Source: Parafannyhessea umbonata
GTDB lineage: Bacteria > Actinomycetota > Coriobacteriia > Coriobacteriales > Atopobiaceae
Direction of reading: 5' to 3'
Length of the DNA stretch: 64,000 nucleotides
Assembly: GCF_900105025.1 (NCBI RefSeq)
Contig: NZ_LT629759.1
Span: 992,001-1,056,000 of the forward strand
Below are positions 11,821 through 18,332 of the stretch, piece by piece; the stretch's first letter is position 1, and every line of letters starts with the position of its first letter. Under the pieces are notes generated by a model. It saw only the letters and a program-made list of their open reading frames with translations, did not search any database and had not been told where the DNA came from. A program made the position numbers and the translations under genes.

Positions 11821-14589
11821 CTACTTTGTGACCTTCTCGGGACCGCCGTTGGAGTTGATCTTAGCCTGGGCAGCCGCAAGGCGCGCGATGGGCACGCGGT
11901 ACGGCGAGCAGGACACGTAGTCAAGGCCGAGGTCGTAGTACATCTGGATGGAGTCCGGATCGCCGCCGGTCTCGCCGCAGACGCCGCAGACGATGGTCGG
12001 GTTTGCCTTGTGGCCGCCCTCGACGCCCATCTTCACGAGCTTTGCGACACCTGTGTCCAGGGTCTCGAACGGGTTGGTCTTGAGAATCTTCTTCGCCAGG
12101 TACTGCGGGATGAACGCGGACTCGACGTCGTCGCGCGAGAAGCCAAAGGTGGTCTGCGTGAGGTCGTTCGTGCCGAAGGAGAAGAAGTCTGCGTACTCGC
12201 CAATCTCGTCAGCGGTGACGGCGGCACGCGGCAGCTCGATCATGCAGCCGACGGGGATGTTGAGCTCGACGCCCTCGGCCTCTGCGACAGCCTGCACGCC
12301 AGCCTCGATCTGCTCGCGGACAAGCTTGAGCTCCTCGACCGTGGAGATGAGAGGAACCATGATCTCGGGCTTGGGGTCAAATCCCTGCTTCTTCAGCGAC
12401 GCAGCGGCGCCGGCGATGGCGCGGACCTGCATGTCGTTGAGCTCGGGATACACGATGCCCAGACGGCAGCCGCGAAGGCCGAGCATGGGGTTGGCCTCCT
12501 GGAAGGAGTCGAGGCGCGCAAGGCGGTCGCGCATGGCCTTGAGCTGGACCTCGGTCTCGCCACGGCCCTCGGCGCGGGCAATCTCGACCGCAAGGTCACG
12601 CGGGTCGTCGAGGAACTCGTGCAGGGGCGGGTCGAGCAGACGCACGATGACCGTCTTGCCGTCCATGGCCTTGAACATGCCCTCGAAGTCGCCGGTCTGA
12701 GCCTGGAGGAGCTGGCCGAGCGCCTGCTGCTTCTGGCCATCGTTGTCGGCGAGGATGAACGACTGAATGATCTGCTTGCGCTCGCCCAGGAACATGTGCT
12801 CGGTACGGTCGAGGCCGATGCCCTCTGCACCGAAGTCGACGGAGAGCTGCGCGTCCGCGGGGTTGTCCGCGTTGGTGCGAACGCCGAACAGGCGGCCACG
12901 GGAGGCGTCGTGACGGACGTCGTCAGCCCACTCGAGGATGGTCTCGAGGTCGCCGGTGAGCTCCGGGCGGGTCAGGGGAACCGCGCCGACGATGATGTCG
13001 CCGGTGGTGCCGTTGATGGAGATGATGTCACCCTCGTGCAGAACGACGTCGGTGCCGGAGATCTTGCACTCCTTGGCCTTTGCGTCGATCTTCAGCGCCT
13101 CGGCGCCGCAGACGCAGGGCGCGCCCATGCCACGAGCGATGACGGCCGCGTGGGACGTCTTGCCGCCGTGAGAGGTGAGGATGCCCTCGGCCGCAACCAT
13201 GCCCTTGAGATCGTCAGGAGTGGTCTCCCAGCGGACGAGGATGCACGGCTTCTCGATGTTGTGGTAGTGAACTGCCGCGTCGGAGGAGAACACGACGGCA
13301 CCGACGGCAGCGCCGGGGGAAGCGTTCATGCCCTTGGCGACGACGTCGAACTTGGCCTTCGGATCGAACTGCGGGTGCAGGAGCTGGTCGAGCTGCTCCG
13401 GGGCGACGCGCATGATGGCCTGCTCGCGGGTAATACGCCCCTCGTCGACCATCTGCATGGCGACCTTGAGGGCGGAAAGCGCGGTACGCTTGCCGACACG
13501 GGTCTGGAGCATCCAGAGCTTGCCCTGCTCGATGGTGAACTCGAGGTCCATCATGTCCGCATAGTGGTCCTCGAGGATCTCGAAGACGTGGTAGAGCTCC
13601 TTGCCTGCCTCCTCGAGACCCGGGGTCTTCGGAAGGTCTGCGATGGGCTCGGTGTTGCGGATGCCGGCGACGACGTCCTCGCCCTGGGCGTTCACCAGGA
13701 AGTCACCGTAGCGCTCGTTGGTGCCGTCAGCCGGGTTGCGCGTGAAGGCGACGCCGGTAGCGGAGGTGTTACCCTTGTTGCCGAAGACCATGACCTGGAC
13801 ATTGACAGCAGTGCCGAGATCATCGGGGATCTTGTTCTGCTTGCGGTACAGGACGGCGCGCTCGGTGTTCCAGGAGCCGAAGACGGCCTGCTCGGCAAGG
13901 CGCAGCTGCAGGTAGGGATCCTGCGGGAACTCCGCGACGCCGTTCGGTGCGACCTCGGGGTGGGCCTGGGAATCGACGTTCTTCGCGAAGATGCCCTTGA
14001 AGGTCTCAGTCAGGTCCTTGAGGTCGTCAGCGTCGAGCTCGGTGTCGAGCTTGACGCCCTTCTCGGCCTTCTTCTCGTTGATGGCATCCTCGAACAGCTG
14101 GCCGTCGACGCCCATCACGACATCAGAGAACATCTGGACGAAACGGCGATAGGAGTCCCACGCGAAGCGCTCGTTGTTCGTCTGCTTGATGAGGCCGTTG
14201 ACAGACTCGTCGTTCAGGCCGAGGTTCAGGACCGTGTCCATCATGCCAGGCATGGAGAACGGAGCGCCGGAGCGGACCGAGACCAGCAGGGGATCGTCGG
14301 GGTCGCCGATCTTCTTGCCCATGCGCTTCTCGAGGTCCTTGCGGTACTCGTCAATCTCGTCGAGGACGCCATCGGGCCATACGTTTCCTGCGCTGGAGTA
14401 GGCAACGCAGGTCTGGCAGGTGATGGAGAATCCTGGAGGAACGGGCAGGCCAATGTTTGCCATCTCGGCGAGGTTCGCGCCCTTGCCGCCCGTAATCCAC
14501 TTGGCCTCGTCAACGCTCTTGCCGGCGACCTCGGTAACGTTGTTACCGTTTTCGTCAACGCCGAATTTGTACACGTGCTTTTCAGCCAT
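11821..14589 (-). CDS. ppdK: Pyruvate, phosphate dikinase
   Basis: Interconverts pyruvate + ATP + Pi with PEP + AMP + PPi; in fermenters it serves glycolysis or PEP supply. The domain order is ATP-grasp N-terminus (GGKGANLAEM near residue 33), the swivelling His domain with the catalytic/regulatory loop GGKTSHAAVIARG, and the C-terminal PEP/pyruvate barrel ending in the Cys motif CGVCGETGGDP. The 922 residues are slightly longer than the usual 870-900. The ATG at 14587-14589 (MAEKHVYKFG) is supported by AGGGG and family alignment. The gene directly upstream is a shortened member of the PPDK-regulator family (14822-15226). Confidence 0.97.
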   Translation of the reverse strand: MAEKHVYKFGVDENGNNVTEVAGKSVDEAKWITGGKGANLAEMANIGLPVPPGFSITCQTCVAYSSAGNVWPDGVLDEIDEYRKDLEKRMGKKIGDPDDPLLVSVRSGAPFSMPGMMDTVLNLGLNDESVNGLIKQTNNERFAWDSYRRFVQMFSDVVMGVDGQLFEDAINEKKAEKGVKLDTELDADDLKDLTETFKGIFAKNVDSQAHPEVAPNGVAEFPQDPYLQLRLAEQAVFGSWNTERAVLYRKQNKIPDDLGTAVNVQVMVFGNKGNTSATGVAFTRNPADGTNERYGDFLVNAQGEDVVAGIRNTEPIADLPKTPGLEEAGKELYHVFEILEDHYADMMDLEFTIEQGKLWMLQTRVGKRTALSALKVAMQMVDEGRITREQAIMRVAPEQLDQLLHPQFDPKAKFDVVAKGMNASPGAAVGAVVFSSDAAVHYHNIEKPCILVRWETTPDDLKGMVAAEGILTSHGGKTSHAAVIARGMGAPCVCGAEALKIDAKAKECKISGTDVVLHEGDIISINGTTGDIIVGAVPLTRPELTGDLETILEWADDVRHDASRGRLFGVRTNADNPADAQLSVDFGAEGIGLDRTEHMFLGERKQIIQSFILADNDGQKQQALGQLLQAQTGDFEGMFKAMDGKTVIVRLLDPPLHEFLDDPRDLAVEIARAEGRGETEVQLKAMRDRLARLDSFQEANPMLGLRGCRLGIVYPELNDMQVRAIAGAAASLKKQGFDPKPEIMVPLISTVEELKLVREQIEAGVQAVAEAEGVELNIPVGCMIELPRAAVTADEIGEYADFFSFGTNDLTQTTFGFSRDDVESAFIPQYLAKKILKTNPFETLDTGVAKLVKMGVEGGHKANPTIVCGVCGETGGDPDSIQMYYDLGLDYVSCSPYRVPIARLAAAQAKINSNGGPEKVTK

Positions 14590-14685
14590 TTGACACCCCT
14601 GATCGTTTTTCCATGGTGCGAAGCCGCACCCCAACACTTGCGGCGCCACTCTGAAACCCCTGCGGTGGCGTCCCTAACGAAACCT

Positions 14686-14691
14686 ATTGTA
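14686..14691 (-). promoter_or_regulatory. Candidate -10 box of ppdK
   Basis: TACAAT on the minus strand lies about 100 bases before ppdK and downstream of the terminator at 14736-14772. The -35 is not convincing. The leader between box and gene contains a small GTGCG/CGCAC hairpin at 14616-14629 close to the start. Apart from these and the terminator, the 14590-14821 gap holds nothing I recognise, including no remnant of a kinase domain. Confidence 0.4.
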
Positions 14692-14735
14692 TCCACACAT
14701 ATTGGTTGTTTGCTCAGAAATAAACGTTAACGGGT

Positions 14736-14772
14736 AAAAAAGGTCGCTGGCATCCATTCGGGTGCCAGCGAC
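14736..14772 (-). terminator. Intrinsic terminator of the rpsP-glyS-DUF299 operon
   Basis: A perfect 10-bp stem GTCGCTGGCA / TGCCAGCGAC with a 10-base loop (two further inner pairs possible) is followed on the minus strand by six T residues. It lies 50 bases after the short DUF299 gene, showing that this gene really ends there. Confidence 0.93.
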
Positions 14773-14821: not shown

Positions 14822-15226
14822 CTAGAGCTCTTCCACCTTGCTATCGACTCGACGGCCGGCCTCGAGCTTCGGCTCCTCGCCGGTAAGCGACATAAGTACC
14901 GTAATTGCAGGACCAAGCAGGTCGATCGAGGGGATGCCACGGCCGTCAAGCTCGCGACGGATGTCCCTACGAAGGTTCCTGTCGACGATGGTGTGGAACA
15001 CGGCGGTCTGCACACCCTCCTCCACGTTCTCGTCGAGATACTTGGTGACGGTAGCAAGGTCCCTGACGTTGCCGACGCTCTTGATGATCACGCTGTCCTC
15101 GCCAAACTGGTCGGCAGCAGCCTCGACGACGCTCGTAGCCGTCTTGCCGCGCGCGTCCGAGATAACGATCACGACGGGAGTTGGCACGTCAAAGATGTCG
15201 TCCTCAAGAATCGTTTCGTCTGCCAT
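14822..15226 (-). CDS. Short DUF299 / PPDK regulatory protein, N-terminal half only
   Basis: This matches the N-terminal part of the kinase/pyrophosphorylase family (DUF299), whose members phosphorylate and dephosphorylate the catalytic-site Thr of PPDK or PEP synthase. Visible family features are VIVISDARGKTATSVVEAA at about residues 18-36, a V..T-rich core, and GIPSIDLLGPAITVLMSLTG near the end. Family proteins are about 260-280 residues and carry a P-loop (GxSRxxKT type) in the second half. This protein stops at 134 residues and has none. The frame ends at a proper stop with a terminator 50 bases on, so this is not an obvious recent frameshift. The ATG at 15224-15226 has GGAGG five bases upstream. 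It is likely a non-catalytic PPDK-binding protein or a domain that needs a partner. Confidence 0.75.
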   Translation of the reverse strand: MADETILEDDIFDVPTPVVIVISDARGKTATSVVEAAADQFGEDSVIIKSVGNVRDLATVTKYLDENVEEGVQTAVFHTIVDRNLRRDIRRELDGRGIPSIDLLGPAITVLMSLTGEEPKLEAGRRVDSKVEEL

Positions 15227-15283: not shown

Positions 15284-17380
15284 CTACTTCTTCTTCGAGA
15301 GGACGCCAATGTTTGCGACGCCGCTGAACACCGATGCGAAACGGTTCAGCAACCGAAGGCGGTTCTCCCTTACTACAGTGTCCTCGTCCATGACGAGTAC
15401 GTCATCAAAGAAACGGTCGATTGGCTCCCTTAGTTCGGCGAGAGCCTTGCAGGCACCCCTGTAGTCCGCCTCTCCAAGCGCCTTCTCCACGTTTTCGTCA
15501 CCTCTCTGGCACGCATCCAGAAGGGCCTTCTCCGCATCGCCCATGATGGACTCGTCCACCTCGATGCCGAGCTTGGCGTCGCCGAGGTGCGCGGCGCGGG
15601 CGTATGCGGTCGCAAGGTCGTCGAAGAGCTCCGGCTGGTCGCGCCTCGCGTCCTCGAGCGCATGCGCACGCTCCAGGAACTCCTCGGGGTCGATGACGCC
15701 CACGCTCGAGACCGCCTCGATCGTGTCGGGCGAGATCTTCTCGTCCTTGGCAATCGTGCTCAGGCGGCCGGCGAAGAACTTCTCGACCTGGGCCTGCACC
15801 TTGTCGGAGTCGAACTCGAGCCCCTGTCGCGCATACGCGTCCAGCGACTTCGCGATGAGCGACTTCAGCGATACGGACGGCATCGTGCGAAGCATCGAGA
15901 TGATGCCGATGGCGGAACGGCGAACGGCAAACGGGTCGGAAGAGCCTGTGGGAGGCTCGTCGATCGCGAAGATGCCGCAGACGGTGTCGAGCTTGTCCGC
16001 GACGGCGACGCACTTGCCGACGACGCCGGACGGCAGCTCGTCCCCCGCAAAGCGCGGGCGGTAGTGGTCGCGGATGGCCTCCGCAACCTCCTCGGGCTCG
16101 CCGGACGCCTTCGCGTAGTAGCCGCCCATCACGCCCTGCTGGCTCGTGAACTCCACGACGGCCTGGGTCACGAGGTCCGCCTTGGCGAGAAGGGCCGCGC
16201 GTGCGGCGTTCGACACCGTCGTGTCGTCGCATCCTGCCTGGGTCGCGACCTCGGGGGCGACCTCCTGCATGCGCAGCGCCTTCTGGTACACGGTGCCGAG
16301 CTTCTCCTGGAACACGACGTCCTTCAGCTTCTGGACGTAGTCCGCAAGCGGCCTCTTAAGGTCCTCCTCGTAGAAGAACTTCGCATCGTCCAGGCGGGCA
16401 CGCACGACGCGCTCATTGCCGTCGATGACGCGCTCGTTGTTGCGGCGCGCGCTGTTGGAGACGACGACGAACTCGCGCGTGAGTGCGCCCTTGGCGTCGT
16501 ACACCGGGAAGTAGCGCTGGTTGGAGAGCATCGAGTCGCAGATGATCTCGTTCGGGACGTCAAGGAACTCCTCGTCGAACTTGCCCACGAGGACCGTGGG
16601 GTACTCCGTGAGGTTCACGACCTCGTCGAAGATGCGCTTCGGTGTGTCCACGTGCGCGCCGCCGCGCTCCGCCTCGACCTGGGCGATGCCGTCGCGAATG
16701 ACCTTGCGGCGCTCGTCCTCGAAGAGCACACCCGCCTCGCGGCACACGTCGACGTAGCACGCCGGGTCCTTCACCACATGCTCGCCAGGGCCAAGCACGC
16801 GGTGCCCGCGCGTGACGTTGGAGGACGTGACGTCCGCGTATTCGACGGGGACGACCTCCTCCCCCAAAAGCGCGCAGATCCAGCGGATGGGCCGCACGAA
16901 CGTCGCGTGCTCGGACCCCCAGCGCTGGCTGCGGTAGTTCGGCCACTCGAGGGAGGCGATGGAGTTCTGGGAGAGCTCGGTCAGGATGGGGACCGCCGGC
17001 CTGGAGGGCACGTTCTTCTCGGCGAAGACGTACTCTCTGCCGTCGGCATCCTGCCTGCGCACGAGCTCCGTCGCGTCAAGGCCGAACTTGCGCGCGAAGC
17101 CTGCGGCAGCTTTCGTGGGGTTGCCGTCAGCGTCGAACGCGATGCTCGCCGCAGGGCCGCGCTTGACTTCGTGGGCCTCTTTCGTGGAGGTGGCGACGTC
17201 CTTCACCAGGACGGTCAGGCGGCGCGGGGTGCTCATGGGAGTGACCGCGCCGTGATCGAGACCAGCCTCGTCCAGGCCGGCGCGGACGAGCTCGCCGAAC
17301 TGCTTGATGGCGTGGATGAGCGGGGCGGACGGCATCTCCTCCGTGCCGACCTCAAGCAGGAAATCCAAGGTGTCTGCCAT
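15284..17380 (-). CDS. glyS: Glycyl-tRNA synthetase beta subunit
   Basis: Beta chain of the alpha2-beta2 glycyl-tRNA synthetase, needed for tRNA recognition. The N-terminus LLEVGTEEMPSAPL is the family signature. RPIRWICALLGEEVVP, an HD-like region (KADLVTQAVVEFTSQQGVMGGYYA) and a C-terminal anticodon-binding domain follow. The 698 residues are usual. The ATG follows the glyQ stop with no base between. Confidence 0.97.
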   Translation of the reverse strand: MADTLDFLLEVGTEEMPSAPLIHAIKQFGELVRAGLDEAGLDHGAVTPMSTPRRLTVLVKDVATSTKEAHEVKRGPAASIAFDADGNPTKAAAGFARKFGLDATELVRRQDADGREYVFAEKNVPSRPAVPILTELSQNSIASLEWPNYRSQRWGSEHATFVRPIRWICALLGEEVVPVEYADVTSSNVTRGHRVLGPGEHVVKDPACYVDVCREAGVLFEDERRKVIRDGIAQVEAERGGAHVDTPKRIFDEVVNLTEYPTVLVGKFDEEFLDVPNEIICDSMLSNQRYFPVYDAKGALTREFVVVSNSARRNNERVIDGNERVVRARLDDAKFFYEEDLKRPLADYVQKLKDVVFQEKLGTVYQKALRMQEVAPEVATQAGCDDTTVSNAARAALLAKADLVTQAVVEFTSQQGVMGGYYAKASGEPEEVAEAIRDHYRPRFAGDELPSGVVGKCVAVADKLDTVCGIFAIDEPPTGSSDPFAVRRSAIGIISMLRTMPSVSLKSLIAKSLDAYARQGLEFDSDKVQAQVEKFFAGRLSTIAKDEKISPDTIEAVSSVGVIDPEEFLERAHALEDARRDQPELFDDLATAYARAAHLGDAKLGIEVDESIMGDAEKALLDACQRGDENVEKALGEADYRGACKALAELREPIDRFFDDVLVMDEDTVVRENRLRLLNRFASVFSGVANIGVLSKKK

Positions 17381-18292
17381 TTAGGCCACCTCCCCCTTCT
17401 TGTTGTCCGCGTCGGTCTTGGACGCCACCAGCTCAAGGTAGGCCTCGCAGCAGGCCTTGGCGATAGTGCGGACGCGGAGGATGTAGTTTGCCCTCTCCGT
17501 AGCGGAGATGGCACCGCGGGAGTCGAGCAGGTTGAACGCGTGCGAGCACTTCATGACGCAGTCGTACGCGGGAAGCGGCAGCTTGCGGTCAAGGCAGGCA
17601 TGGCACTCCCTCTCGTAGTCGTCGAACTTCTGACGCATCATGTCTACGTTCGCGACCTCGAAGTTATAGGTGGAGAACTCGAACTCGTTCTCGTGGAACA
17701 CGTCGCCGTACGTCATGGGCGTGCCGTCGGGCAGGTAGCTCCACACGAGGTCGTACACGGAGTTCACGCCCTGGGCGTACATGGCGATGCGCTCGAGGCC
17801 GTAGGTGATCTCGACGGGAACGGGGTCGACCTCCAGGCCGCCCACCTGCTGGAAGTACGTGAACTGCGTCACCTCCATGCCGTTGAGCCACACCTCCCAG
17901 CCAAGGCCCCAGGCACCGAGCGTGGGAGACTCCCAGTCGTCCTCGACGAAGCGCACGTCGTGGTCGTTGGGATCGAGGCCGATGGCCGCGAGCGACCCCA
18001 GGTACAGGTCCTGCGAGTCCACGGGGGACGGCTTCAGCAGCACCTGGAACTGGTAGTAGTGCTGCAGGCGGTTGGGGTTGTCGCCGTAGCGGCCGTCCGC
18101 AGGGCGGCGGCACGGCTGCGGGTAGCAGGTGCGCCAGGCGGCGGGTCCCAGTGAGCGCAGCAGCGTGGCCGTGTGGAACGTGCCTGCACCGACCTCGCTG
18201 TCGTACGGCTGCATGACGGTGCAGCCCTGCTCCGCCCAGTACTTATCAAGCGTCAGGATGATCTCCTGAAACGTAAGCGGCTTGTCGCTCAT
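17381..18292 (-). CDS. glyQ: Glycyl-tRNA synthetase alpha subunit
   Basis: Catalytic alpha chain that activates glycine. It is recognised by [19 protein letters not shown] at the N-terminus, [22 protein letters not shown] and [17 protein letters not shown]. The ATG at 18290-18292 (MSDKPLTF) fits the family. A second ATG six codons upstream (18310) with GGAAG before it is possible; neither site has an ideal ribosome-binding site. It lies in the lepB-glyQ-glyS run. I looked for a T-box in front and saw none. Confidence 0.96.
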
Positions 18293-18332
18293 GTCCCTTA
18301 AAGCTCCCATCGTATGTCTTCCGGCGCGGCGG

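Follow-up and report, generated by a model that had tools for sequence, protein, structure and literature searches.

A stand-alone N-terminal domain of the PPDK regulatory protein, without the catalytic half, is widespread in Atopobiaceae

The window analysed here, a stretch of 64,000 nucleotides of the Parafannyhessea umbonata genome, contains a half-length DUF299 gene (14822..15226, minus strand) that encodes the N-terminal, regulatory domain of the PPDK regulatory protein (PDRP) as a stand-alone protein. The gene is an intact open reading frame of 134 residues, with an ATG start, a TAG stop and a GGAGG sequence read by eye 7 bases 5' of the ATG. Pfam PF03618 (Kinase-PPPase/DUF299) matched the half protein with 60.9 bits, above its cut-off of 23.5, but the match paired protein residues 19-126 with positions 1-106 of the 256 in the profile and so fell short of whole-profile coverage. 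NCBIfam NF003742 scored 59.3 bits, below its cut-off of 225, and aligned over positions 7-114 of 270 only. The source genome, a single contig of 2.35 Mb, holds a single PF03618 match at E ≤ 10 and no match to a profile of the C-terminal half at E ≤ 1. Within the sensitivity of these searches, neither the protein, nor the gap to ppdK, nor the rest of the genome contains the catalytic P-loop domain (GVSRxxKTP in relatives). By sequence and fold the half protein is homologous to the PDRP N-terminal domain, without the defining catalytic domain. "PPDK regulatory kinase" is therefore an unfit name, and annotation from the Pfam name alone would misname the protein.

A DUF299 homologue is reported in all bacteria having PPDK (PMC8100219). 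According to PMC9138534, both domains of PDRP adopt a common fold with a P-loop in each, the protein has a single active site located in the C-terminal domain, and the N-terminal domain is proposed to be allosteric. The half protein resembles PDRP (DUF299, PF03618; maize 5d0n) in the fold and motifs of its N-terminal domain, and its gene adjoins ppdK as do those of full-length relatives; unlike PDRP it lacks the C-terminal catalytic domain and has no known route to phosphorylate or dephosphorylate PPDK. Its N-terminal half is also weakly homologous to E. coli PSRP/PpsR (NF049928, 15.1 bits), which differs in being full length and catalytic and in targeting PEP synthase, as described in PMC2817694. 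In the DUF299/PPDK-regulator literature searched, no title or abstract opening took a lone PDRP N-terminal domain as its subject. In Atopobiaceae, where PPDK is nearly universal, the catalytic part of the regulator is mostly gone while the poorly understood N-terminal domain is retained; this natural domain-separation experiment, probably performed more than once, opens the function of the N-terminal domain to direct testing. That the presumed sensing half was kept across the family while the catalytic half was lost suggests that it has a job of its own.

The half gene starts 57 bases downstream of the open reading frame 15284..17380, itself preceded by 17381..18310; both lie on the minus strand, and we take them to be glyS and glyQ, the beta and alpha subunits of glycyl-tRNA synthetase. 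On its other side lies ppdK (11821..14589, minus strand; 922 residues, TIGR01828, 1220 bits), whose product carries the TSH motif GGKTSHAAVIARG. The interval between the half gene and ppdK contains an intrinsic terminator (14736..14772, minus strand) consisting of a stem-loop (14743-14772) followed by six U (14736-14741), with a folding energy of -22.8 kcal/mol and z = -3.68 relative to shuffled sequences. This stem-loop has no entry in a simple terminator scan, presumably because its stem is interrupted. These features confirmed the preliminary description of the sequence, which had seen an intact-looking half-length gene closed at residue 134 by a stop and a strong terminator, and its statement that the region to ppdK holds no kinase-domain remnant was also borne out, none being found in the gap. 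Since the terminator separates the half gene from ppdK, the two are probably carried on separate transcripts, and their order could be mere inheritance.

Atopobiaceae are gut and oral bacteria. A match to the N-terminal half of the window protein was found in 132 of 140 family genomes, including 100 of the 101 good ones. The same 140 genomes were searched with a catalytic-half profile built from 8 full-length family members: 15 of the 132 matching genomes contain the catalytic half, as a full-length protein, and 117 have the N-terminal half without any catalytic C-terminal half in the genome, though for a few of these the match is weak or partial (G287, G413, G388). The preliminary description had considered a catalytic partner encoded elsewhere; in the profile search none of the 140 genomes proved to encode a C-terminal half on its own. 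Besides the 15 full-length genes it returned six C-terminal-half matches of about 33 residues in five genomes (E 0.2-0.66), which were treated as chance. Conservation of the short form was evident at the level of individual loci: of the best 80 among 109 named loci, 77 carry the short form (126-137 residues) and 3 the full-length one, glyS is adjacent in all 80 and ppdK lies downstream on the same strand in 77. Another 60 glyS-linked loci, chosen from other family genomes, comprise 45 short (125-135 residues) and 15 full-length genes (278-304 residues), with glyS in 60/60 and ppdK within the fetched stretch in 54/60. The nearest named relative, from P. umbonata (locus L144), is 97% identical to the window half protein. 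No half form was found outside Atopobiaceae among the 53 matching genomes of 396 sampled across the phylum, nor, by best E-value and among the matches listed, in the sample of the class. PPDK itself is present in 136/140 family genomes and in 101/101 good ones. In G290 (C3:197925-200745) ppdK is split into two matches and in G277 (C3:19981-22718) it contains an in-frame TGA, each reflecting a broken gene or an assembly error.

The core of the half protein is under purifying selection and its tail looks unconstrained. Comparison of the window gene with its P. umbonata counterpart, the nearest named pair, gave dN = 0.017, dS = 0.314 and dN/dS = 0.053. Over 2043 pairs with dS between 0.15 and 1.2, which are not mutually independent, the median dN/dS was 0.368 (range 0.015-0.887, Nei-Gojobori), with medians of 0.28 for core residues 17-118 and 0.98 for the tail past residue 118.

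The structure of the half protein alone was predicted with AlphaFold2 from 42 sequences (pLDDT 88.5, pTM 0.79), and the model indicates a complete four-stranded alpha/beta domain. A Foldseek search with this model returned a single match at E ≤ 0.001, 5d0n ("maize PDRP bound with AMP"), and VIA-align placed the model on residues 135-262 of the 5d0n chain, corresponding to the N-terminal domain (Z = 14.2, 119 residues, rmsd 3.9). We take the AMP of 5d0n to be located in that same N-terminal domain. The remaining fold neighbours scored Z = 8.3 at most and were regarded as sharing a common alpha/beta arrangement. The SDxxGxT and DLLGP segments of the PDRP N-terminal domain are both present and conserved. 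Residues invariant in the 42 sequences cluster at the C-terminal sheet edge, in the three loops that follow strands 1, 3 and 4: S23, D24, G27, T29 and A30 in or next to the P-loop-like segment SDARGKT that follows strand 1 (residues 23-29; 15140..15160, minus strand), H78 and T79 in FHT at the end of strand 3 (residues 77-79; 14990..14998, minus strand), and S100, D102, G105 and P106 in SIDLLGP at the end of strand 4 (residues 100-106; 14909..14929, minus strand), all positions being counted from the ORF start at 15226. At position 78, histidine in every Atopobiaceae row takes the place of the tyrosine seen in 12 full-length rows drawn from the class outside Atopobiaceae. The C-terminal edge is presumably the side on which sheets of this type usually bind ligands. 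The gene had been described as lacking the P-loop half, which is correct for the catalytic P-loop; the retained half nonetheless contains its own P-loop-like segment.

Our best explanation, on which we are about evenly divided, is that the stand-alone, non-catalytic domain is a sensor of adenine nucleotide or phosphate whose effect, most likely exerted on PPDK, comes from binding and replaces control by phosphorylation. Atopobiaceae would have shed the catalytic kinase/pyrophosphorylase domain, probably repeatedly, leaving the PDRP N-terminal domain to live on alone; the half protein would bind adenine nucleotide or phosphate at the conserved sheet edge, and its bound or free state would bind PPDK and tune it stoichiometrically, standing in for the ADP/Pi-driven phosphorylation of the threonine in the PPDK TSH motif. 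The proposal that the N-terminal domain works alone, already put forward from the sequence, gains support from clade-wide conservation, purifying selection, a complete predicted fold and a conserved ligand edge. The other option raised at that stage, that PPDK control has been lost, was sustained in part: since no PF03618 catalytic half remains, control of the phosphorylation type was likely lost, but total loss of control would leave the retained half unexplained. Two observations do not bear on the choice of target. In all 120 PPDKs read the regulatory motif is identical except for the last residue printed, whether the genome has the short or the full form (at the other loci PPDK was absent or truncated at this site), and it gives no information on PPDK as the target; likewise, co-occurrence with PPDK is uninformative because PPDK is nearly universal in the family.

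We took 18 loci, in 17 family genomes, that carry a second and distant half-length copy of 123-146 residues (L124-L141). These paralogues resemble the window protein in being stand-alone PF03618 N-terminal domains, but they form a separate clade, which gathers all 18 with 100/100 support in the N-terminal-domain tree, and they reside in glycyl-radical-enzyme or deoC-type operons. Ten of them (L132-L141) adjoin a radical-SAM activase and a PFL-like glycyl-radical enzyme, and for nine of these ten a transaldolase/FSA-type gene also lies in the stretch. At L138 (4976-9724), for instance, the paralogue stands beside the activase, with the PFL-like enzyme and the FSA-type aldolase on the opposite strand. 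At L124, L125, L128 and L129 the paralogue directly follows a deoC-type aldolase, and some of the deoC-linked loci also have a transaldolase after the paralogue and a GntR/UTRA regulator nearby; Pfam was run on one or two representatives per kind. The paralogues demonstrate that the domain can persist on its own and be transplanted to new loci; since they occur in operons without PPDK, PPDK is not necessarily its target. These operons favour an alternative that we regard as possible but rather unlikely, namely that the domain has left PPDK to become a small, general nucleotide-sensing module that now serves something else, for instance carbon metabolism of the aldolase type or a function tied to the glyQS operon. 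Four genomes in which ppdK lies elsewhere but the half gene is kept (G175, G058, G046, G240) point in the same direction. Against such a change of target, the orthologues of the window gene proper have ppdK downstream in 77 of the best 80 named loci, and the paralogues may have switched target after the duplication.

The P-loop-like segment raises another question, since the loop of the window protein, DARGKTA, aligns with the maize catalytic loop SRTGKTP and has both R26 and K28. The resemblance would fit a lone domain that is a minimal kinase or phosphorylase using its own P-loop. Where the window protein has SDARGKT, SDSLG(E/D)T is the sequence in most full-length relatives. R26 is present in 91% of the 43 short forms of the main clade and in none of 15 full-length proteins; most full-length rows have leucine there. 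K28 occurs in only 30% of those 43 short forms and in 18 of 77 named short loci; it is missing in about three quarters of short forms and in a separately shortened genus (g6), so catalysis by K28 cannot be the general reason for retention. No equivalent was shown for the other catalytic-domain residues either, and we consider a minimal enzyme improbable. The window lineage has acquired GKT in this loop, which could be a re-arming of the old loop but is not common to all short forms. A wider picture, which we hold doubtful, would make the domain a free-standing signalling module, released more than once, duplicated into other operons and re-armed with GKT, in which adenine-nucleotide sensing and perhaps turnover sets PPDK by binding.

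How often the catalytic half was lost was examined by phylogeny. In a tree of N-terminal domains built from 91 rows and 112 columns, the short label requires 3 changes, 2 of them forced by starred branches; once the paralogues are removed (quick tree), the AU test does not reject a single short-form clade (p = 0.487). A single short-form clade is rejected on the glyQ+glyS+ppdK tree (59 rows, L117 dropped; p = 2e-68). However, ppdK seems to have moved between genera: G244 (L080) and the window share 93% identity in PPDK and only 70% in GlyS. We therefore based the conclusion on glyQ+glyS alone (58 rows, 1003 columns; L117 and L118 dropped), where one short clade is again rejected (p = 1.5e-8) and the short label needs 5 changes, 4 of them forced. 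On this tree the short genus g6 (L074-L076) joins four full-length rows with 100/100 support, nested in full-length lineages. Read most simply, these results mean that Atopobiaceae probably shed the catalytic half on two or more separate occasions, although lateral transfer or regain of full-length genes could explain some branches.

Probable repeated loss is also what would be expected if the half protein were a slowly decaying, functionless leftover of a lost regulator. Full-length proteins have altered catalytic P-loops in genus g5 (L114, L115), with GLSGSAKTP in place of GVSRTSKTP, in L117 (GVTRTSKTP) and in L118 (GMHRTSKTP), as if, going by these motifs, their catalytic half were drifting too, and the unconstrained tail of the short forms fits the same idea. 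Yet a functionless relic would hardly be matched in 132 of 140 genomes and in all but one of the 101 good ones, with its ligand-edge residues fixed and a dN/dS of 0.053 in the nearest named pair, and we give a mere leftover little credence. In g5, ppdK lies far from the full-length DUF299 gene.

A faulty assembly, a sequencing error or a recent nonsense mutation was rejected as next to impossible and found no supporting evidence, since full-length orthologues were sought in sister strains and all three genomes of the genus have the short form, 77 of the best 80 of 109 named loci are short and end nearly alike, and no catalytic-half remnant occurs within 700 bases after any of 78 short genes examined. 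A frameshifted catalytic remnant before ppdK was rejected as well, the best of the 26 hits at E ≤ 10 having E = 0.14 and lying on the wrong strand. Finally, a 906-residue open frame runs antisense to ppdK (12010-14730, plus strand) and is most likely a by-product of high G+C codon use.
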